A stretch of 33,897 nt of DNA from Terriglobales bacterium (GTDB lineage: Bacteria > Acidobacteriota > Terriglobia > Terriglobales > Acidobacteriaceae): NCBI GenBank assembly GCA_035457425.1, contig DATIBR010000192.1, positions 1 through 33,897 of the forward strand, read 5' to 3'. Positions within the stretch are counted from its first letter, which is position 1. Every line of letters starts with the position of its first letter. The position numbers were made by a program, and so were the translations under genes. Positions 11,624 to 22,813 of this stretch are shown one piece after another. The notes under the pieces were generated by a model, which had not been told where the DNA came from, did no database searches, and saw only the letters and a list, made by a program, of their open reading frames with translations.

Positions 11624-12343
11624 TCAGTCGCCGAGGACGAAGCGGACGGTGACCTGCGCCTCGACCTCGATGGGTGAGCCGTTGAGATAGTAGGGACGAA
11701 AGCGCCACTGCCGTACCGCCTCGAGTGCAGCTCCGACGAGCATGGGATGGCCACTGACGACGCGGAGGCTTTCAACCCCGCCGTCTTTGGCGATCACCGC
11801 GTGCAGGATGACTTCTCCTTGTACGCGGATCAGCTTCGCTTGCGGTGGATACGCGGGCTCGACGCGATGGACGATCATGCCTGGGTCGAGGCGCGAGAGC
11901 ACGAGCTTCTCGGGACCCCTGACCGGGCGCGGCGGTGGTACGAATCCGTTGGGATCGCCACCGGGCACGCCACAACAGCCGCTCGGTCCGGTGGAGGGCA
12001 ATTCGGGGATCGTCTCTCCGACAAAATCAGGCCGCGCGGGACCATACGGCAGCGCAGGAGACATGTTGCGCACGATCGGTCTCGGACCGCCGAGGAATGG
12101 TCCATGACTGTTCCCGCCGCCCGGCTCGGGCCGCTGATCCCGATCCGATGCCGGCGCCTGGCCCAACGGTACGTTCAGGACCTGCGCGTGCACCGACATT
12201 CCGGGAATGGCGTCGAGGTAAAGCAGCGGCACGGCGACGAGCGCGGCGATGACCAGGCTTTCGCCGGCGAGGGTAGCGACGAGCGCGAGCTTGCGGCGGC
12301 GGCGCTCGGCGCGCGGGACTTCCAGCAGAACGGAGTCGAACAT
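11624..12343 (-). CDS. TonB C-terminal domain protein (energy transducer type)
   Basis: A 239-aa inner-membrane protein. The N-terminal cytoplasmic stretch (RAERRRRK) is followed by one transmembrane segment (LATLAGESLVIAALVAVPLLYL), a long Pro/Gly-rich periplasmic linker, and a TonB C-terminal domain (VEPAYPPQAKLIRVQGEVILHAVI, then AVRQWRFRPYYLNGSPIEV). Such proteins carry proton-motive energy to outer-membrane receptors. The linker has an odd Cys pair (GCCGVPGG). GAGGTGAGAG before ATG 12343 is a good ribosome site. It follows ompH on the same strand but a terminator lies between them. Confidence 0.85.
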   Translation of the reverse strand: MFDSVLLEVPRAERRRRKLALVATLAGESLVIAALVAVPLLYLDAIPGMSVHAQVLNVPLGQAPASDRDQRPEPGGGNSHGPFLGGPRPIVRNMSPALPYGPARPDFVGETIPELPSTGPSGCCGVPGGDPNGFVPPPRPVRGPEKLVLSRLDPGMIVHRVEPAYPPQAKLIRVQGEVILHAVIAKDGGVESLRVVSGHPMLVGAALEAVRQWRFRPYYLNGSPIEVEAQVTVRFVLGD

Positions 12344-12467
12344 CTCTCACCTCTTCTTCTCGAGGGCGGGGCAGCAAGCCGCTTCGGGCCCTCGCGCTGT
12401 GCTCGCGCGGGCCAGCGCTCGCTCCGCGCCCACCCGTTTGCGCGAAAGACACCGCGGCGACGGAGGG

Positions 12468-12500
12468 AGAAAAAGAAAAGCCGCCCGCGTGGGCGGCTTT
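12468..12500 (-). terminator. Rho-independent terminator of ompH
   Basis: Minus strand: stem GCCGCCC-ACGC-GGGCGGC (12480-12497), followed by TTTTCTTTTTC. It lies 20 bases past the ompH stop. The plus strand also has TTTATTTT after the stem. Confidence 0.88.
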
Positions 12501-12519
12501 ATTTTCCGGGAGCCGGGAA

Positions 12520-13191
12520 CTAGCGCGGCTTGGTCGGTGTCGGCTGTGGCTGTGCCGGGCGCGTGGCGGAAGGCGCCGCAGGAGCGCCGGCCGCGGGCTT
12601 GGGCGGCGCCGGCACGCCGGACTCGGTGTTGTAGGCCTCGACCACGGCCTGGGTGATGTTCACACCCTGGGCGGCCCACAGCACGTTGGTGTTCTGCTCG
12701 TTGCCGACGTCGATGATGACGGCGAAGCCGTTGGCCGTCGCCCACTTGTCGAGCGTCTTGAAGATCTTGGTGCCGATGGCGTTGCCGATGTCGTTGGACT
12801 GCGTCTGGAAATCCTTCTGCGCGTCTTCGGCGAGGCGCTTGAGGGCGGTCTGCTTCTGGTCGATCTGGCGGAGCAGGCTCTGGCGGGCGTCCTCGTTCAT
12901 CTTGTCGCCCTGGGTCTGCATCTGGGTCTGGAGCGCCTTGATCTCGTCCTGCTTGGTCTTGATCTCGACGCTCTTGGGGTCGAAGCGCTTCTGCAGGGCG
13001 GCGAAGTCGCGCTGGCCCTCGTTGGAAGCCAGGATGGCCATCTGCATGTTGATGATGCCGACCTTGGTGGGCGCGGGGGCGGCAGGCGAAGCGGGCGCCG
13101 GCGAGGCGGCCGCGCGCGTGGTCTGCGCGAATGCGGTGAGCGACAGGATGACGGCCAGGGCCAGGGCGATACGTGCGTGCGTGCGATTCAT
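12520..13191 (-). CDS. OmpH/Skp family periplasmic chaperone
   Basis: A 223-aa exported protein. It has a signal peptide (IALALAVILSLTAFAQTTRA), an Ala/Pro-rich spacer, the OmpH start VGIINMQMAILASNEGQRDF, then a long charged coiled coil (KSVEIKTKQDEIKALQTQMQ to DAQKDFQTQ) and the closing VIIDVGNEQNTNVLWAAQGV. Skp-type trimers hold unfolded outer-membrane proteins for the BAM complex. A Pro/Ala-rich C-terminal tail is an addition to the family core. The start ATG 13191 has AAGGAG upstream. It has its own strong promoter. In many diderms this gene directly follows bamA; here the cus operon lies between. Confidence 0.9.
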   Translation of the reverse strand: MNRTHARIALALAVILSLTAFAQTTRAAASPAPASPAAPAPTKVGIINMQMAILASNEGQRDFAALQKRFDPKSVEIKTKQDEIKALQTQMQTQGDKMNEDARQSLLRQIDQKQTALKRLAEDAQKDFQTQSNDIGNAIGTKIFKTLDKWATANGFAVIIDVGNEQNTNVLWAAQGVNITQAVVEAYNTESGVPAPPKPAAGAPAAPSATRPAQPQPTPTKPR

Positions 13192-13333
13192 TGTTTCTCG
13201 TGAACTCCTTCGGTGTACTCCAGGATCCCTCAGAAACCCTTCAGACGGCGGCCTGCGCGCTCATCCATTGGACGGGGGACAGGCAGGAACGGAGGCTTCT
13301 CACTGAAAAATCTCAGGGCTGCGAGTAGCAGCC

Positions 13334-13362
13334 ATTATAGGCGGGTTGGGCAGGCGTGGCAA
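13334..13362 (-). promoter_or_regulatory. Promoter of ompH
   Basis: Minus strand TTGCCA (13362-13357), a 17-base spacer and TATAAT (13339-13334). The predicted transcript starts near 13327, giving a leader of about 136 bases. A hairpin GGCTGC-5-GCAGCC (13317-13333) overlaps the start region. It sits between the cusA stop and ompH, so ompH does not depend on read-through from cus. Confidence 0.75.
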
Positions 13363-13384
13363 ACCGCTCACCCATGCTCGGTGG

Positions 13385-16300
13385 TCAGACGCTGGCGTCC
13401 TCCTCCGCCCGGTCGTTATCGGGGATCAGCGACTTACGGAGTTCGCGCTCACGCAGCCAGGTGAAGATCACGGGCGTCACGATGAGCACATGCAGCAGCG
13501 AGCTCACCATGCCACCCAAGACCGGGGTCGCGATGGGCTTCATGACCTCGGCCCCGGTGCGGGTGGACCACATGATGGGCAGCAGGCCGGCGACGACCGT
13601 GGCTACGGTCATGACCTTGGGCCGCAGCCGCAGCAATGCGCCCTCGATCACGGCCTGGTGCAAGCCTTGGGGCGTCAGCACACCGTCGGCGGCGAGGCGC
13701 CGAGCGACCGCTTCCTCGAGGTATATGACCATCACGACGCCGGTCTGGACGGCGGTCCCGAACAGCGCGATGAACCCCACCCAGACCGCGACGGAGAAGT
13801 TGTAGCCGAGCAGTTTGAGCAGAAAGACCCCGCCGGTGAGCGCGAAAGGAACCGCAAGGAGCACGTGCGCGGCCTCCTGGGCGGAGTGGTAGGTCCAGTA
13901 GAGCAGCAGGAAGATGATGACGACCACGATGGGAATGACGATCTGGAGGCGCTTCTTGGCGCGGATCTGGTTCTCGTATTGGCCGCTCCACTCGATGTGG
14001 TAGCCGGTGGGGAGCGCGACGCGCTGCGCGACGACGGCTTTCGCCTCATCGACGAAGCGGCCCGGGTCGCGCCCGCGGACGTTGAGCATGACGGTGCCGC
14101 GCAGCTGGCCATTCTCGCTGGAGATCATCGCCGGACCGAGGACGGTACGGATGGTGGTGAGCTGGTCGAGGGGGATCTGCGCGCCGTTGGGGGCGTTGAC
14201 GACGACGTGGCGGAGTTGGTCGATGTCTTCGCGGAAGGCACGGGCGTACCGCACGCGAATGGGCAAGCGCTCGCGACCCTGGATGACGATGCCGGCCTCC
14301 TTGCCGCCGATGCCGGTCTCGATGGCATCCTGCACCTCGCCGACGCCGATGCCGTAGCGCGCGGCAGCCTGGCGGTCGATCTCGATCTCGAGGTACGGGG
14401 CGCCGGTGATGCGTTCGGCGTAGAGATCGACCGCGCCGGGCACGGTGCGGAGCGCTTCCTGGACCCGCAGCGAGAGGTCCTCGATGTTCGTCAAGTCGGG
14501 CCCGAAGACCTTGACGCCGACCTGCGTGCGGATGCCGGTGGAGAGCATGTCGATGCGGTTGCGGATGGGCTGGGTCCAGATGTTGGTGACGCCGGGCAGG
14601 CGCAGCTTTTCATCGAGCCGCTGGATGATCTGGTCCTTGGTGGTGCCCGCCGGCCATTGTTCCTTGGGCTTGAAGATGACGACGGTCTCGGCCATGTTGA
14701 CGGGCGCGGGGTCGGTGGCCGTCTCTGCCCGGCCGACCTTGCCGACGACGCGGTCGACGGCCGGATCGGCGGCGATGATGCGGTCCTGCTCGGCCAGGAT
14801 CTCGCCCGCCTTGGTGAGCGAGATGCTGGGATCGGTGATGGGCATGAACATCGCGGAGCCCTCGTCCAGCGGGGGCATGAACTCCGAGCCGATGGTGGTG
14901 GCGGTCAACAGGGCGCTGACGAACAGCACAGCCGCGAGCAGCAACGTGAACGTCCGGTTCCGCAACGCCCACAGGAGCGCGGGCCGGTAGATGGCTTGCA
15001 GGCCGTGCATCACCGGGTTCCGGTCTTCCCGGTGCAGCTTGCCCCGGATGAGGAAGGTGCAGAGCACGGGCACGAGTGTGACCGCAATGATGGTGGAGGC
15101 GACCATCGCGAACGTCTTGGTGAAGGCGAGCGGGTGGAACATCTTGCCTTCCATGCCGGTGAGGGCAAACACCGGGATGAAGGCCAGGATGATGATGGTC
15201 ATGGCGAAGAAGATGGGACGGCCGACGATCTTGGCGGCGCGCAGGGTGATCTCGCGGATGTAGGGCACATAGTCGCCGTGGCCTTCGGCGTACCTCTCGG
15301 CCTGGCGAATGACGTTCTCGGTCATGACGATGCCGGCATCGACGAGCACGCCGATGGCGATGGCGATGCCGCCGAGCGACATGATGTTCGAGGTGATGCC
15401 GGCGTAGTACATCATCAGGAACGAACTCCCGACGGCGAGGGGCAGCGGGAGCGTGACCACGAGGATGCTGCGGAAGTGCCAGAGGAAGATGATGTGCGCG
15501 AGGGTGACGAGCAGGATCTCTTCGATGAGGGCGTGCTTGAGGGTGTCGACGGAGCGGTCGATCAGCTCGCTGCGGTCGTAGAAGGAGCGGATGGTGACGC
15601 CGGGGGGCAGGCCGGGCTTGAGCTCGTCGAGTCGCTGCTTGACGCCATCAATGACCTCGCGCGCGTTGGCGCCGTAGCGGATGATGACGACCCCGCCCAC
15701 CACCTGCTTGCCGGCGTCGTCGAGCAGGCCGCGGCGGAACTGCGGACCCAGGGTGACGGTGGCAACGTTCCGCAAATAGACGGGTGTCCCGTTGCGGCTC
15801 GAAAGGACGATGTCTTCCACATCCCGGGTGGAACGGATCAGGCCAAGGCCGCGAACGACGAACTCGCGGTCGTTGGCTTCGACGACCTTGGCGCCGACGT
15901 TGGTGTTCGAACGTTCCACCGCCTCGTAGACCGTCTTGAGCGGAAGGTTGTAAGAGCGGAGCTTGAGCGGGTCGACATCGACCTGGTATTCGCTCAGGTG
16001 GCCGCCCACGGAGGCGACTTCGGCCACCCCTGGCACCGAGTTGAGGACGTAGCGGATGTACCAATGCTGGAGTGAGTGCAGTTGTGCCTGGTCGTACGGG
16101 CCTTCGACGGTGTACCAGAAGACCTGGCCGACGCCGGTGGCGTCGGGCCCGAGTGTCGGCATCACCCCCTGCGGGAGGAAGCTGGACGACAGGTTCAGGC
16201 GTTCCAGGACGCGGGTGCGGGCGAAGTAGACGTCGACGTCGTCGTTGAAGACGACGTTGATCATCGAGAAGCCGAAGGCCGACGAGGAGCGCACCGCGCG

Positions 16301-16537
16301 TACGCCCGGCAAGCCCTGCAAGTTGACGGTGAGCGGATAGGTGATCTGGTCCTCGACCTCCTGGGGACCGCGACCGGGCCAGTCGGTGAAGACGATGACC
16401 TGGTTCTCGCTCAGGTCGGGGATGGCGTCGATGGGCGTGTGCAGCATCGCCCAGTAGCCCCAGAGCGCGAGCGCGATGTAGGCGACGAGGATGATGGGAC
16501 GGTTGCGGAGCGAGAATTCGATCAGCTTATTGATCAT
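13385..16537 (-). CDS. cusA: Cu(I)/Ag(I) efflux RND transporter CusA
   Basis: A 1050-aa heavy-metal RND pump of the inner membrane that drives metal export through CusB and CusC using the proton gradient. It has the usual 12 transmembrane segments and two large periplasmic loops. The proton-relay Asp is in [14 protein letters not shown] (Asp400). Three methionines match the copper triad of E. coli CusA (M573, M623, M672): Met565 in AMFMPITD, Met615 in [10 protein letters not shown] and Met664 in [10 protein letters not shown], with identical spacing of 50 and 49 residues. This favours Cu/Ag over the Zn/Co/Cd CzcA branch. GAGGAG precedes ATG 16537. It starts 10 bases after cusB. Confidence 0.95.
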
Positions 16538-16547
16538 GGCTGTCTCC

Positions 16548-18086
16548 TCACTTCGCCGTCACGCGCGTTCGCTGTTGCGCGATGAGGGCGCCGTCCTTGC
16601 GCGCGACCGCGGTCACGGTCCACGCGCCTGACATCGGCACGTTGAGCTGCCCGGCGTAGGCGGAGCCGTCCCACGCGAGAGCCGCCTCGGCCTTCATCTC
16701 CCCCATGCCCATCGAGGGCATCGCGGGCATGAAGAAGGTGACGGCGACCTCCGCGCCTGCCACGTTCTTGCCGGCGTCGTCGGTGAGGTGGGCCTTGATG
16801 TTCACCGGCTGCCCGCCCTTGGGCTCCGCGGGGTCGAACATCAGGCGCAGGGTCGCGCCGCGGGTTTGGGATGGAGGCGATGGCTGACTCGAGTACTCCT
16901 TCGCCCCGCCGAACATGCCGGACATCCCGCCGGTGATCCGCGTCTGCGAATCGATCATGAACGCGCCGCGCGTGACGACGCTCTCGCCCTCCTTCAGGCC
17001 GGAGAGCACGGGGTAGTAGCCGTCGGTGGCTTCGCCCAACCGCACCGGGCGCTGCTCGAACTCGCCGTTCCCGCGGGCGACGTAGACCAGCTGATCGGCC
17101 CCTGTGTCGAGCACCGCCGTGCGCGGAACGGCGAGCGTGGGCGCGCGCTTCCCCACGTCGAGCCGCACGCGCACGAACATGCCCGGGCGGAGGCGAAGCT
17201 CAGGGTTCGCGACCTCGATGCGCGCGGCGGTGGTGCGCGTTTCGGGGCTGACATTGGGATCGAGAAAGCTGACGCGCCCGCGCAACTTCGTGCCGGGGAG
17301 AGCGTCGGTGGTGATCTCTGCGGCAGCGCCGGTGCGCAGGCGCGAGAGCTCGTCCTGGTAAACGTCGGCCAGGACCCACACGCGGCTGAGGTCCGCGATG
17401 GTGAAGAGCGCCTCGCCCTCGGAGACATATTGCCCAGCGGTGACTTTGCGCTCCTTGACGACGCCGGAGGCCGGGGAATAGGTCGTGACATTGACAGCGG
17501 ACCTGCCCGCGGCGAGTTCGTCGATCTGGCTGGCGCTCAGGCCCCAAAGCTCCAGCTTGCGCCGGCTGGCGGCGACGAGGTCGTTCGCCTGCTCGCGCGC
17601 TTCCGCGGTGGCGTTGGCAAGACGTTCCTGACTCTCGAGCGCCAGCCGGTATTCCTGCGCGGCGGTGAGCAGGTCGGGGCTGTAGATCGAGGCCACCGCC
17701 TGCCCGCGACGAACCGGCTGCCCGGTGAAATCGAGGAAGAGCCTGTCGATGCGGCCGGCGACGCGCGCGCTGATGGTCGAGAGCTGCGTCTCGGCTTCGT
17801 CCACGCGGCCGGGCAAGAGCAGGTCGCTCGCGATGTCGCGGCGCGTGATGGCTGTGAGCTGGACGCCGATGGACTTCTGCTCGGCGTCGCTCAGCATCAC
17901 GGAAGCGGCTTCCGCGCCTGCCGCGCCCGGGCGGTGCGCCGAGTGGTCCGGCGGAGCCGCGGCCGGTGCGACCATGGGAGCCGCCGTTGCAGACTTGGAC
18001 TGATCTCGCCATGCCAAGTATCCGGCGGCGAGGGCGAGTCCGAGCGCGACGCCGGCGACGGTCAAAGTGATCTCTTTGCGTGTCAT
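16548..18086 (-). CDS. cusB: RND efflux adaptor CusB with C-terminal YtkA-like domain
   Basis: A 512-aa membrane-fusion protein linking CusA to CusC in the periplasm. There is a membrane anchor/signal at residues 6-26, a His-containing linker ([11 protein letters not shown]), then the adaptor core: barrel-sandwich ([19 protein letters not shown]), alpha hairpin ([18 protein letters not shown]), and beta-barrel ([18 protein letters not shown]). From about residue 409 there is an extra domain of about 100 residues with the immunoglobulin-like YtkA pattern and a Met-rich loop, [12 protein letters not shown] (residues 453-464), likely to bind Cu(I). E. coli CusB lacks this domain. The ATG overlaps the cusC stop (ATGA), indicating coupled translation. 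Confidence 0.9.
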
Positions 18087-19417
18087 GGAGCTTCTCCCTG
18101 CCGCGGCGAAATCGCGCGGCGGATGGGCGTGCCGGTGGCGCGCTCCAGCTCGCTCAATCGCGTATCGAGGTCCGCGAGCGAGCGGTAATAGGCGGTGCGG
18201 ACGTCGAGCGCCATGTTCTGGCTGTCGATCAGGTTCAGGAAATCCGTCCGGTCGGTCTGGTAGGCGGCGGAGGCGGAGCGCAGCGCGCTGTCGACCTGCG
18301 GTGCCAGCGTGTTGCGGTAAAGGTCGACGAGGCGCTTGGCCGATTGCACGCGGATGAGCGCCTCCTGCAGTTCCTGCCGGACGGCGTTGCGCTTGCTCTC
18401 CAGTTCCGCGTTGCGCAGGCTGATCTCCGCGCTGGCTTCCGCGATCTCCGAATCGTGCCGGCGCTTGTTGAACCACGGCAGCGTCATGGAGAACTCCGCC
18501 ATGTAGCCGTTGCGGAACTCCATCCCGGTGGGACCGAGCATGTATCCGGCGCCGACCTGGAAGTCGGGCAGGTAGGTCTTGCGGGCCAGAGCCAGCTTGT
18601 CTTCGCCCTGCTGAACGGATCGGCGAAGGCCGGCCAGCTCCGGGCGATTGGCGATCGCGGCGCGCTCCAACTCACTGAGGGCGGGCAGCTGGTCGGGCGA
18701 GGTGTAGGCGCCGACCACGCGGAGCGGTTCGCCCGGACCGCGGCCGAGCAACGTGTTGAGCCGAGCGCGCGCCATGGCGCCTTGCTCGTCGAGCATGACG
18801 AGGTGCTCGACCAGGCGCGTGAGCACGATCTGCGCCTTGAGCGTGTCCTGCTGCGGGACCTTGCCGACGCTGTACTTGATGCGCGCGGCCTCGAAGGCCT
18901 GGCGCGCCAGCGCCACCTGGCGGTCGTGCAGCAGCAGCTCGTCGCGATTGCGCAGGAGGTCGTAATACGCCTGGCGCACCTGCAGCAGGACGTCGCGGCG
19001 CATCGCCTCCAGTTCGCTGCGCGAGATGGCGACGTCCTGCCGCGCGACTTTGTCGGCCAGCCCGCGCTTGCCCGGCCCGGGTAGGGCCTGCGAGAGCATC
19101 ACCATGTTCTGCGACCGGTCGAGGTCCCAGGGGCGGCGCAGCGGAACGCCCCAGGTGCGGACCTGGAGCATGGGATCTTCCAGAGCGCCGGCTTGCGGCG
19201 CGCGGGCCTCGACGACCGCTATGCGGGCAGCGGCCGCCTTCAGTCCAGGATTGCCGGTCAGCGCGGCTGCCTCGAGGTCGTCGAGCGTATAAGTCGGCGC
19301 GCTGGTCTCGACGTGATGCTGCGCGAGCATCGCGTCCAAAAGTGCGGGCGGCTCCTGCTGGCCCATCGCGGGCCAGACAGCGAGCAGCGAGAGTACGAGT
19401 ACAGCAAGGCCTTTCAT
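18083..19417 (-). CDS. cusC: TolC/CusC-type outer-membrane efflux protein
   Basis: A 444-aa outer-membrane channel. It has a signal peptide (about residues 1-19) with no lipobox Cys, unlike E. coli CusC, and then two outer-membrane-efflux repeats: the first from YTLDDLEAAALTGNPGL through QAYYDLLRNRDELLL and YSVGKVPQQDTLKAQ, the second from IANRPELAGLRRSVQ through YRNTLAPQVDSALRSASAAY. These form the trimeric alpha-barrel tunnel. GGAGG lies before ATG 19417. It is the second gene of the cus operon and overlaps cusB by four bases. Confidence 0.9.
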   Translation of the reverse strand: MKGLAVLVLSLLAVWPAMGQQEPPALLDAMLAQHHVETSAPTYTLDDLEAAALTGNPGLKAAAARIAVVEARAPQAGALEDPMLQVRTWGVPLRRPWDLDRSQNMVMLSQALPGPGKRGLADKVARQDVAISRSELEAMRRDVLLQVRQAYYDLLRNRDELLLHDRQVALARQAFEAARIKYSVGKVPQQDTLKAQIVLTRLVEHLVMLDEQGAMARARLNTLLGRGPGEPLRVVGAYTSPDQLPALSELERAAIANRPELAGLRRSVQQGEDKLALARKTYLPDFQVGAGYMLGPTGMEFRNGYMAEFSMTLPWFNKRRHDSEIAEASAEISLRNAELESKRNAVRQELQEALIRVQSAKRLVDLYRNTLAPQVDSALRSASAAYQTDRTDFLNLIDSQNMALDVRTAYYRSLADLDTRLSELERATGTPIRRAISPRQGEAP

Positions 19418-19481
19418 GTCTTCCCTCCACGAGGATCGAGTGGGGCGGACACGCTACGGCGTCCGCGAGAGACACGAAGGG

Positions 19482-19874
19482 CTAGATACGAAGGACGGAG
19501 CTACAACGCGGCGGAGAAGTGGGTGGCGAGCGGTCGCTGGTCAGCGAGCTTGCCTCCGCCGGCCTTTCCGTGTGGACGGCGATGGGAGCAGGCAGCACCG
19601 CAACCTGGTCGAAATCGATGGACGAGGTCTTGTGGGGCGCGAAGGCGTCAGGCACGCCCGCCACGGTGCGGCAGCACTGGTGTGACGCCGGCCCGACCTG
19701 GTCGTGGCAGTCACCGTGCATCTGGCGGCAGCACTCGGCTTCGCTCACCGCGAGCGCGGCCGTTTCCATGGCGCACGCCATCAGCGGGGTCGCAAACAGG
19801 AATGCGATCGTGCCGAGCGCGACGAGCGCGGAAAGGGCACGGCTGCGGACTGTGGTGCGACGGGTCATCGCCAT
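19482..19874 (-). CDS. Exported Cys/His-rich small protein heading the cus operon
   Basis: About 130 aa. I do not recognise a family with confidence. It has a signal-like hydrophobic stretch (ALSALVALGTIAFLFATPLMACA), then a short segment dense in metal-binding residues: ECCRQMHGDCHDQVGPASHQCCR, six Cys and three His within 23 residues. A variable Pro/Ser/Thr-rich tail follows. The layout resembles DUF2946-like proteins found near copper genes, but that is only a likeness. It lies 64 bases upstream of cusC on the same strand. A role as periplasmic metal scavenger or sensor is inferred. Start ATG 19874; GTG 19877 and ATG 19868 are also possible and none has a ribosome site. Confidence 0.65.
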   Translation of the reverse strand: MAMTRRTTVRSRALSALVALGTIAFLFATPLMACAMETAALAVSEAECCRQMHGDCHDQVGPASHQCCRTVAGVPDAFAPHKTSSIDFDQVAVLPAPIAVHTERPAEASSLTSDRSPPTSPPRCSSVLRI

Positions 19875-19880
19875 CACCAG

Positions 19881-19921
19881 ACTATGGGATGCCGCGGATG
19901 CTGGATGTGACGCAGGTCACA
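19881..19921 (-). promoter_or_regulatory. CRP-type operator and -10 of the cus operon
   Basis: TGTGACCTGCGTCACA (minus strand, 19921-19906) is a perfect match to the CRP half-site pair TGTGA-N6-TCACA. A -10-like CATAGT lies at 19886-19881, six bases before the ATG at 19874. If transcription begins at that ATG, the operator centre is about -40, the class II activator position. The site lies between the bamA stop and the first cus gene, so it can only serve the cus operon on this strand. Confidence 0.65.
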
Positions 19922-19945
19922 CCGGGAGTGCCAAGAGAGTTCCGC

Positions 19946-22813
19946 CTAGAAGGTGGTGGAGACGGAGAAGCGGAAGGTGGAGCGGGGCTCGTGGAGGCGG
20001 GCGCGGCCGCCGCCGGCGAGGGATTCATTGCGGACCGCCTGCTGGAAGCTGAAATCGCCGGCGCCGCCGGGCGGGAACATGTCGCGTGTGATCTGGGTAT
20101 TGCCGTTGATGAAGGTGTCGAGCGTCAGCGGGTTGAAAGCGTAGTAGACGCGCAGGGGCGCGTTGATGACCGGCATGAGGATCTGGATCTCGGCGCCGGT
20201 GGACATGCGCGGCACGTAGTTGGTGGCGGAGATGGGATCGATCTGCTGGTCGAAAGGCGGCAGCGCGAAGCCCGCGCAGCTGAAGTCCGGGTTGATGGCC
20301 GGGCAGCCGAAGGTGCTGCTGTTGAGGGCGTCGAGCGAGGCGGGCGAGAGCTTGAGCTGCGACGGGCGCGCCACGAAGTCCATGCCGAAGTCGTTGAACA
20401 GGGCGAAGGTGACCGGGCCGGCGATGGGGATGCGGTACTCGACGTTGGAGACGATGCTGGTGTCGCCGCCGGGGAAGATGAGGCGGCGCATCGGCACCGG
20501 CACGGTGACGACGCCGCGACGCAGGTTGCTGGGGTCGATGGGGACGAAGGAGCCGTCGGGGTTCTGGAGCGGGAAGTTGACCTTCTGCACCAGGTAGATG
20601 GCGGGCGAGATGGTGCGGATGTCGAAGCCGCGCAGGTCGGTGTCGCCGCCCATGTAGGCGCGCTCGAAGGGAGGCGCGACGATGCCGCCCCAGCCCGTCA
20701 GGTAGGAAGCCTGCAGGCGCACGCCGAGGATCTGGGGCGCGTTGCCGGGATCATGGGTGAAGCGCAGTCCCTTCATCGGGAACCAGATCTTGTACTCGAC
20801 GATGGGACGGAGCGAGCGGACGTTGCCGCCGAGTCCGGCGATCTCGCCGCCGAGGTAGAGGCTGTTGCCGCCGGTGGGGCGGAAGTTGTTGTTGATGGTC
20901 GAGAAGCTGAAGCTGGGCAGCAGCTTGCTGGTGACGATGCCGCGCAGCGCGTTGGGACCGGAGATGCTGCGGAAGTCGATGTTCTCGAAGGCGAAGCGCG
21001 AGGCGTCGCTGAAGGTATCGATGGACGTCCGGTCGAGCGCGTAGGTGAGGCCGACGCGCTTGAAGGAGTGGCGCAGCGGATAGCTGGCGTAGAGCGAGAT
21101 GCCGGTGGAGGACTGGCGGTAGTTCTGCAGCGTGTTGAGGAAGGACTGGGGCAGGTTGAGCTGCTGGCCGCTGAGCTCGGCGGCGATGCGCGCCTGGTCG
21201 TAGTCGTAAGAGCGGTGGTAGATGGTGAAGCCGGTCTGGAGGGGGCGGTCGAACATGTACGGCTCGGTGAAGCCGAACAGCAGGTTCTTCTCGCGCGAGC
21301 CCACGTTCGCCTGGATGGTGAGCGTCTCGCCCAGGCCGAGGAAGTTGTTGGTCTGGTAGCTGAGGCCGACGAAGGAGCCGGAGAGGCCGCTGACGCCGCC
21401 GTTCAAGCCGATCTGGTTCTTACCCTTTTCCTTGAGCTTGAGGGTGAGGTCGACGGTGCCCTCGCCCTCGTTGCGGCGGATGACGGTGTCCTGCTCGGGC
21501 TTGAGCTGCTCGAAGTAGTTGAGCTGGTTCAGGCGGAGGATGCTCATGTCCCAGAGGCGGGAGTTGTAGAGGCCGCCTTCCTCCACCGCGAGCTCGCGGC
21601 GGATGACCTTGTCGCGCGTGGTCGTGTTGCCCTCGAACTCGATGCGCCGGACGTAGAACTGCTTGCCCTCGTCCACGTCGATCTCGAGCGAGATGACCTT
21701 CTTGTCGTCGTCGATCTTGGTGTCGGGGATGGAGGTGAAGTTGATGTAGCCGTACTCGCCGTACGCCTTGGTCAGGTTCTGCAGGCCCTTGCGGATGGCG
21801 GAGATGTCGAAGATGTCGCCGTCCTTGATGGGGAAGAGGCCGCGCAGCGCCCTCTGGTCGGCGATGGCCTTGTTGTTCTTGAAGGTGATGGACCCCAGCC
21901 GGTAGCGCTCGCCTTCCTCGATGGGCAGGGTGATGTCGATCGCCTTGCCCTTCTTCGACTTCCAGAAGAACGGGAAGTTGATGCCGCCGGTGTCGCGCAC
22001 CTTGGTCTTGGGGTCGTTGACCAGGGCCTTGAAGTAGCCCCTCTGCTGGTAGGCGTCGCGCACGCGCTCGGTGTCTTCGGTGAGCTTGGAGGCGTCGTAG
22101 GTCTTGGCCCAGAGGTTCTCGAGGAAGATGGAGTGCGGGATGCCGATGGGCCGCAGGTTGACCATGGCGCGCCGCAGCTTGCGGCCGGAGATGTGCTTGT
22201 TGCCCTCGAAGCGGATCTTGCCGACCTTGACCTTGGGGCCTTCCACCACGTTGAAGAGCACGGCGACGGCGCCGGGCGGGATGGGATGGATCTCCGGGGT
22301 GACCTTGGCGAACTGGCGGCCGTGCTCGCCCAGCAGCTCTTTCAGGACGGTCTCGGCGCGCTTGATGCGGGTGGGGTCGTACTGGCTCTCGACCGTGAGG
22401 CCGACCTTGCGCTCCTTGAAGCGGTCGAGCACGTCGGACTGCGAGACCGAGTTAAGGCCCTTGTACTCGATGCGGCGGATGGTCGGCCGCTCCTTCACGT
22501 AGATGTGGATGACCACGCCGCCGGCCACGTCCTCGCGCTCGATGCGCAGGTCCTCGAAGTAGCCGGTGTTCCACAGGGAATTGAAGTCGCGCTCGACGCC
22601 GGCCGGGTCGTAGACGTCGCCGGCGCGGGTGAAGATGCGCGCGCGGATGCTCTCGGCCGGGATGCGGCGCTGGCCGTGGATCTCGACGCTCTTCACGACC
22701 TCCTGGGCCTGGGCCAATCCGCTGAAAAGACCGGAGAAAAGTACCAGCAGGAGGGTCGCGAAGAGAAAGCGGCCCGCCGCCGCCGAACGTGCGCGACGTG
22801 CGAGACAAGACAA
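19946..22813 (-). CDS. bamA: Outer-membrane protein assembly factor BamA
   Basis: A 955-aa Omp85 protein that inserts beta-barrels into the outer membrane. It has a signal peptide (FATLLLVLFSGLFSGLAQA), five POTRA domains (beginning near VKSVEIHGQRRIP, IRRIEYKGLNSVS, VGKIRFEGNKHIS, LGSITFKNNKAIA and VRRIEFEGNTTTR), then a C-terminal 16-strand barrel with the GGDTDLRGFDIR lid-lock motif and a terminal Phe (FSVSTTF). It is longer than the E. coli protein (810 aa). The start is TTG at 22813: no ATG, GTG or other TTG lies upstream before the in-frame stop at 22856. A TATAAT 55 bases upstream is the probable -10. Confidence 0.95.
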   Translation of the reverse strand: MSCLARRARSAAAGRFLFATLLLVLFSGLFSGLAQAQEVVKSVEIHGQRRIPAESIRARIFTRAGDVYDPAGVERDFNSLWNTGYFEDLRIEREDVAGGVVIHIYVKERPTIRRIEYKGLNSVSQSDVLDRFKERKVGLTVESQYDPTRIKRAETVLKELLGEHGRQFAKVTPEIHPIPPGAVAVLFNVVEGPKVKVGKIRFEGNKHISGRKLRRAMVNLRPIGIPHSIFLENLWAKTYDASKLTEDTERVRDAYQQRGYFKALVNDPKTKVRDTGGINFPFFWKSKKGKAIDITLPIEEGERYRLGSITFKNNKAIADQRALRGLFPIKDGDIFDISAIRKGLQNLTKAYGEYGYINFTSIPDTKIDDDKKVISLEIDVDEGKQFYVRRIEFEGNTTTRDKVIRRELAVEEGGLYNSRLWDMSILRLNQLNYFEQLKPEQDTVIRRNEGEGTVDLTLKLKEKGKNQIGLNGGVSGLSGSFVGLSYQTNNFLGLGETLTIQANVGSREKNLLFGFTEPYMFDRPLQTGFTIYHRSYDYDQARIAAELSGQQLNLPQSFLNTLQNYRQSSTGISLYASYPLRHSFKRVGLTYALDRTSIDTFSDASRFAFENIDFRSISGPNALRGIVTSKLLPSFSFSTINNNFRPTGGNSLYLGGEIAGLGGNVRSLRPIVEYKIWFPMKGLRFTHDPGNAPQILGVRLQASYLTGWGGIVAPPFERAYMGGDTDLRGFDIRTISPAIYLVQKVNFPLQNPDGSFVPIDPSNLRRGVVTVPVPMRRLIFPGGDTSIVSNVEYRIPIAGPVTFALFNDFGMDFVARPSQLKLSPASLDALNSSTFGCPAINPDFSCAGFALPPFDQQIDPISATNYVPRMSTGAEIQILMPVINAPLRVYYAFNPLTLDTFINGNTQITRDMFPPGGAGDFSFQQAVRNESLAGGGRARLHEPRSTFRFSVSTTF

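Follow-up and report, generated by a model that had tools for sequence, protein, structure and literature searches.

A CRP/FNR-type operator and a candidate copper-sensing leader peptide at the head of a cusCBA copper efflux operon in Acidobacteriaceae

Copper export is usually under the control of dedicated sensors, such as CueR, CusRS, CopY and CsoR. For gene content, a natural point of comparison for the locus described here is E. coli CusCFBA, with a CusF gene between cusC and cusB and with CusRS as its regulators, and for promoter layout the class II promoters of E. coli CRP and FNR. Leader peptides have been described in two further copper systems. In Rhodobacter capsulatus, CutF, encoded upstream of cutO, combines a Cys motif with a Pro-rich end, and a stem masks the next SD sequence; CutF-like genes often lie ahead of OEP genes, and the end of CutF alone, without copper binding, gave no arrest (PMC9973294). 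In Bordetella pertussis, CruR carries both CXXC and RAPP, and copper lowers expression via Rho termination (PMC9426467).

The present locus resembles each of these systems in part. It holds the same CusC-, CusB- and CusA-type genes as E. coli, with Met residues at the positions of the CusA triad, whereas its cusC and cusB overlap with no CusF gene between them, and CusRS is not invoked. As at E. coli class II CRP and FNR promoters, a CRP-type palindrome would be centred at about -41.5, and the target here is a copper efflux operon; the candidate regulator shares FNR-like N-terminal cysteines, but differs from E. coli FNR in their spacing (CxxCx7C) and in a CRP-like recognition helix. In common with CutF are an exported leader with a Cys motif, a Pro-rich C-terminus and a stem over the next ribosome-binding site, while the CxxxC of CutF is replaced by CC...CC, a conserved LR[IV]-stop end is present, DUF2946 is not matched and the leader is paired with a CRP/FNR-type operator (PMC9973294). 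With CruR, the locus shares a small copper-related uORF heading the operon, with a Cys motif and a C-terminal Pro motif; here CXXC and RAPP are lacking, efflux genes lie downstream and induction is expected (PMC9426467).

The cus operon and its operator

The window, that is, the whole stretch of DNA analysed (33.9 kb), comes from a genome of 3.14 Mb in 192 contigs. The initial annotation had seen in it a copper efflux operon headed by a perfect CRP-type operator, and this description was confirmed, the order being a bamA-like gene, the site, a 131-aa ORF, an OEP gene, an adaptor gene and a gene for a pump of the CusA/CzcA family. The features are as follows.

19906-19921, minus strand: CRP/FNR-type operator TGTGACCTGCGTCACA, supported by pattern search, shuffles, genome counts and orthologous promoters
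19879-19884, minus strand: -10-like hexamer TAGTCT, 21 nt past the operator, an offset common to the regulon
19482-19874, minus strand: leader ORF, 131-aa frame, starting at ATG 19874 or 19868, or at GTG 19877
19410-19482, minus strand: predicted RNA stem between the leader stop codon and the cusC start (-37.5 kcal/mol, z -2.5)
18083-19417, minus strand: cusC-like outer membrane efflux protein (Pfam OEP, 159 bits)
16548-18086, minus strand: cusB-like periplasmic adaptor, with a YtkA-like domain at its C-terminal end (profile matches)
13385-16537, minus strand: cusA-like RND pump (TIGR00914, 1119 bits, cut-off 701)

Besides scoring above the TIGR00914 cut-off, the pump has the Met triad of a CusA-type Cu(I)/Ag(I) pump, and since its Met 565, 615 and 664 align with the three Met residues of E. 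coli CusA, which have a role in Cu(I)/Ag(I) transport, copper is supported as its substrate. On one side the operon is bordered by the bamA-like gene and on the other by ompH (skp-like), with every gene on the minus strand (11624-22813). No match to BamA, OmpH or TonB was found beside cus at 1e-8 in 81 other loci, mostly with 3 kb or less on each side, so that a conserved bamA-cus-ompH arrangement, present in the window only, was rejected, and the position of cus between these genes looks like an insertion in this lineage.

The operator reads TGTGACCTGCGTCACA on the minus strand (19921-19906), the strand of the cus genes, and TGTGACGCAGGTCACA on the plus strand (19906-19921). Its match to the CRP half sites is exact, as first annotated: TGTGA and TCACA, the half sites of E. 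coli CRP, occur in the exact form TGTGA-N6-TCACA once in the window, and in none of 100 dinucleotide shuffles, while with up to two mismatches the pattern showed no enrichment in the window (4 matches vs 6.1 expected).

The same palindrome recurs in orthologous promoters; its absence from them would have spoken against the initial annotation. Among 397 genomes of the order, 148 gave OEP matches with an E value of 1e-40 or below, and the upstream regions of 71 of these matches, taken nearly in rank order and including those of the window and of L102, were searched. TGTGA-N6-TCACA was matched at 9 or more of its 10 bases in 54 of the 71 cus promoters, the other 17 falling below this level, whereas a control pattern reached it in none (maximum 8/10); a stricter 12-base pattern, applied to 31 of these promoters, was found with at most two mismatches in 16, compared with 1 for its control. 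The operator usually sits just 5' of the leader ORF, and the relatives with names are mostly Acidobacteriaceae/Terriglobia, including Granulicella sp. L46, with the operator at locus L200, and Occallatibacter savannae AB23. Many of the cus-bearing relatives have a variant operator, TGTGAT...ATCAC, in genomes where the fetched homologs are 38-47% identical to the candidate regulator described below, and the acting CRP/FNR paralog at cus may therefore differ in these relatives. In more distant cus operons the 9/10 operator was found in 1 of 17, and the operator was accordingly rejected as a general trait of acidobacterial cus operons.

The spacing of a -10-like element provides a prediction of where transcription starts. 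Around the sites in the source genome, 13 of 62 flanks (12 without the window) have a TANNNT that starts 21 or 22 nt past the site, with a count of at most 2 at any other offset. Of the 80 flanks around 40 exact sites in relatives, 17 have TANNNT at this distance, with at most 4 elsewhere; in neither set did any of 1000 shuffles match these counts at any offset pair. With its own hexamer at this offset, the cus operator would thus be centred at -41.5, the class II position, relative to a start at about 19872 that is predicted from the -10 spacing only, in support of the earlier estimate of about 40 bases before the probable start. The leader ATG (19874 or 19868) coincides with the predicted start or is a few bases away from it, and in relatives, where the leader begins 29-38 nt past the site in 16 of 54 leaders and at 45-60 nt in 22, the promoters of the first group would be near-leaderless as well. 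Across the 54 operator-bearing cus promoters, TANNNT has 23 counts with a start at 19-23 and 11 with a start at 27-28, and NATNNT has 16 at 21 and 12 at 22; about a fifth of these promoters thus have TANNNT at 27-28 instead of 19-23, which counts against the model set out below.

The regulon and its candidate regulator

Allowing up to one mismatch, a search of the source genome for TGTGACNNNNGTCACA gave 31 sites, compared with 3 for a control pattern read backward, and exact matches number 12 compared with 0. Of the 31 sites, 28 fall at least partly outside the genes that a simple caller predicts, and many are immediately upstream of one. Adjoining genes include hemA and hemE, as well as genes for an nrfE/ccmF-type haem lyase, a CoxB-like protein and a c6-like cytochrome (all three below NCBIfam cut-offs), hemerythrin, an Rrf2 regulator, multihaem cytochromes, AhpC/TSA, a universal stress protein, and Fe-S or flavin proteins. 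Together with the genes that neighbour the candidate regulator on contig C74, this list points to a haem, respiration and nitrogen-oxide regulon as the one to which the operator would belong. Some sites adjoin genes with no evident link to such functions, by our reading transketolase and TonB-type receptors, and one exact operator, which has a class II -10 element, precedes a gene for a ComM-type (Mg_chelatase) ATPase (L025:3084), which is unexpected in a redox regulon. A one-mismatch operator, with a -10 element at the class II offset, adjoins the gene for a protein with repeated Cys/Met-rich units (CMKDGKC; L035:2016-2885), possibly another metal-binding target.

A CRP/FNR protein, which the initial annotation had expected to co-occur with the palindrome, is among the 11 cNMP-binding matches in the genome. 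Of these proteins, the one encoded on contig C74 alone has both an N-terminal CxxCx7C and the CRP-type recognition helix RETVTR; a paralog on contig C181 has a RETVSR helix and lacks CxxCx7C. The C74 gene has an exact copy of the operator at its 5' end and a second 41 nt past the gene, and is followed by genes for a YwiC-like protein (our reading), ScdA/RIC, a radical SAM protein and a multicopper protein that we read as NirK-type, and then by NorB with a cytochrome c-like domain and a multihaem cytochrome. This nitrogen-oxide cluster behind the regulator gene (L020:7585-16975) has further sites in between.

In homologs from 30 fetched genomes, one from each, CxxC..C and RE[TS][VI][TS]R are present in 30 of 30, and RETVTR exactly in 23. 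A Cys in C-x-G context was matched by pattern in 29, and the thirtieth (L072) shows the same by eye; a Cys like C122 of FNR occurs in 13 of the 30 and is absent from the C74 protein. The Fnr model gives the C74 protein 41 of 228 bits, and its nearest PDB relatives by sequence are members of the CRP/FNR family, with FNR-type regulators lower in the list. Because of the CxxCx7C, the RETVTR helix, the exact sites flanking the gene and the adjacent nitrogen-oxide genes, the regulator is likely FNR-like rather than a cAMP-CRP.

The number of operators follows this regulator across genomes. The exact-site count and the score of the regulator, compared over 60 genomes of the order, gave a Spearman coefficient of 0.67 (p 4e-9; 0.65 without the source genome) compared with 0.04 for the control pattern, in a set where three low scores are stand-ins and related genomes are not independent. 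The 8 genomes with at least 240 bits hold 53 sites and 0 control matches; for the 31 genomes at 130-240 bits the totals are 28 and 5, and for the 21 below 130 bits they are 2 and 2. No CRP/FNR homolog was found beside cus by tblastn at 1e-4 in 81 loci, mostly with up to 3 kb on each side, and a regulator encoded adjacent to cus was rejected on this basis.

The leader peptide and the leader-cusC junction

The 131-aa leader, which the initial annotation did not take up, is predicted to be exported, is Cys-rich with a CC...CC arrangement, is Pro-rich with PP, ends in LRI-stop and has no RAPP. With two members searched up to E 10, it had no Pfam match, DUF2946 (CutF/CruR) included, and NCBIfam likewise gave none. 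The 71 upstream regions were searched for any ORF with CC-(8-30)-CC, leaving the end unconstrained, and all 66 ORFs found end in L[RK][IV]-stop (58 LRI, 7 LRV, 1 LKI). In the remaining five regions, those of L127, L138 and L195 have leaders ending in LRI with altered Cys, that of L230 has one ending in LRI, and no leader was found in L216. In 11 aligned members, C32, C46, C47, C65, C66, P115, L126 and R127 are invariant.

The RNA that joins the leader to cusC is predicted to fold over the start of cusC. In the window, 1 of 200 shuffles was as low as -37.5 kcal/mol; the ribosome-binding site of cusC (about 19424-19429) is paired in this fold, as is the ATG, and the other arm of the stem begins at the leader stop codon. 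Over 31 junctions the mean z was -2.2, and in 27 of them pairing of the SD sequence exceeded 70%. Across 70 of the 71 junctions (L216 missing), the stretch from SD to start pairs with post-stop RNA at 0.50 compared with 0.15 for shuffled spacers (Wilcoxon p 1e-12), exceeding 0.5 in 40 of the 70 junctions only, while overall SD pairing is 0.86 compared with 0.78; this set was selected on the L[RK][IV] end and is therefore no independent evidence for that end. The 38 long spacers gave a consensus with an SD stem, the whole consensus having 34 double-changed cells where shuffles averaged 16.3 and reached at most 29, whereas no such stem emerged from the 21 short junctions, so that a single fold for all junctions was rejected; the consensus folding left out 11 of the 70 junctions, of other lengths. 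RNA masking the next ribosome-binding site, a trait of CutF, is thus predicted here too, with a consensus stem in the long spacers and none in the short ones. Taken as a whole, the leader looks like a candidate copper-sensing nascent peptide acting on cusC translation.

On computational evidence we favour, with fair confidence, a model in which transcription of cusCBA depends on redox state or NO and its translation on copper. The operator would be a class II site for the FNR-like regulator encoded on contig C74, outside the window, which would decide on cus transcription, presumably by activation, upon low oxygen, NO or a different signal that its cysteines perceive. The transcript would begin at, or a few bases ahead of, the leader ORF, and translation of the leader would decide translation of cusC and the following genes. 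The RNA directly past the leader stop would mask the cusC ribosome-binding site; copper on the exported CC...CC part would cause the ribosome to pause at the Pro-rich end with its LRI, and the paused ribosome would cover the post-stop RNA, thereby freeing the site. Control of copper efflux by a CRP/FNR-family factor, as initially annotated, is supported in this model, with the amendment that the factor is likely FNR-like and not cAMP-CRP; the operator likewise holds as a control element of cus, but is probably only half of the control, with the leader as a second layer, because the first gene resembles a nascent-chain copper sensor. Besides the promoters with TANNNT at 27-28, several observations weigh against the model: the lack of a CRP/FNR homolog in the flanks searched at 81 cus loci, the variant operators and divergent regulator homologs of many relatives, the second candidate on C181, the missing C122-like Cys, the 17 of 71 promoters below 9/10, the 21 short junctions, the pairing above 0.5 in no more than 40 of 70 junctions, and a leader that has neither the CXXC nor the RAPP of CruR.

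Several other explanations bear on the operator. An origin of the palindrome by chance would agree with the unenriched two-mismatch search of the window, but is contradicted by the absence of exact sites from the shuffles, the excess of sites in the genome (31 vs 3) and the conservation in 54 of 71 orthologous promoters, which leave it a negligible probability; the palindrome is real. That cAMP-CRP governs cus is very improbable in our judgement: the half sites, which are those of E. coli CRP, and the RETVTR helix of the C74 protein would suit it, but this protein reaches 55 bits against a cut-off of 266 in the CRP equivalog model, and the Arg-Ser stretch that marks the cAMP pocket of CRP was not found in it (judged by eye), and on this score and these residues cAMP-CRP was dismissed. 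More weight, though still that of an unlikely case, goes to another TGTGA-reading CRP/FNR protein that would bind in response to a different signal, either the C181 protein or paralogs that differ by genus; the RETVSR helix of C181 and the variant operators in many relatives argue for it, while the exact sites at the C74 protein's own gene, and a site number that follows its orthologs over 60 genomes, argue against.

The leader itself admits another explanation, in which the operator works as described, the leader is merely a periplasmic copper-binding protein, and cusC is translated without special control. An exported, Cys-rich product encoded first in a copper operon is what such a protein would look like, and high-GC RNA folds readily, as the SD pairing of 0.78 even with shuffled spacers illustrates; but the LR[IV]-stop end of all 66 ORFs, and pairing between SD and post-stop RNA far above that of shuffles, speak against it, and we regard it as improbable, about as much so as binding by another paralog. 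Compared with it, redox- or NO-dependent transcription coupled to copper-dependent translation remains the reading that we prefer and, given a pump with Met at the CusA positions, the simplest one.

Across Acidobacteriaceae, the same elements might form a two-input gate on copper efflux, which we propose tentatively, at slightly less than an even chance, and which would join an FNR-like sensor with a CRP-type helix to a new family of copper-sensing arrest peptides. The class II, often near-leaderless promoter would be the redox or NO input, and the peptides with CC...CC and LR[I/V]-stop, by unmasking the cusC ribosome-binding site, the metal input. If so, a dedicated copper transcription factor would be unnecessary for the cus operon, and in these soil bacteria copper export would join the haem, cytochrome and nitrogen-oxide regulon, while a nascent peptide would do the separate reading of copper. 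When oxygen is absent, the more toxic form of copper is Cu(I), and NirK-type nitrite reductase requires copper, so a link between redox state and copper is physiologically sensible. Control of cus by FNR or CRP in Acidobacteria was not found in a literature search that covered titles and abstract openings, and subscription papers thinly. The leader, with its strikingly conserved C-terminal tripeptide, is a testable candidate for an arrest peptide.

The leader occurs in one copy in the source genome, and a survey of the phylum gave a match in 15 of 199 genomes, 12 of them in the same family (source genome counted). Among the acidobacterial cus operons that are more distant, 12 upstream regions were inspected, and 9 of them (L106, L107, L109, L110, L112, L113, L114, L116 and L117) have a leader that ends in LRI. 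Since L106 alone among these nine loci has a 9/10 operator, the leader may be older than the operator.
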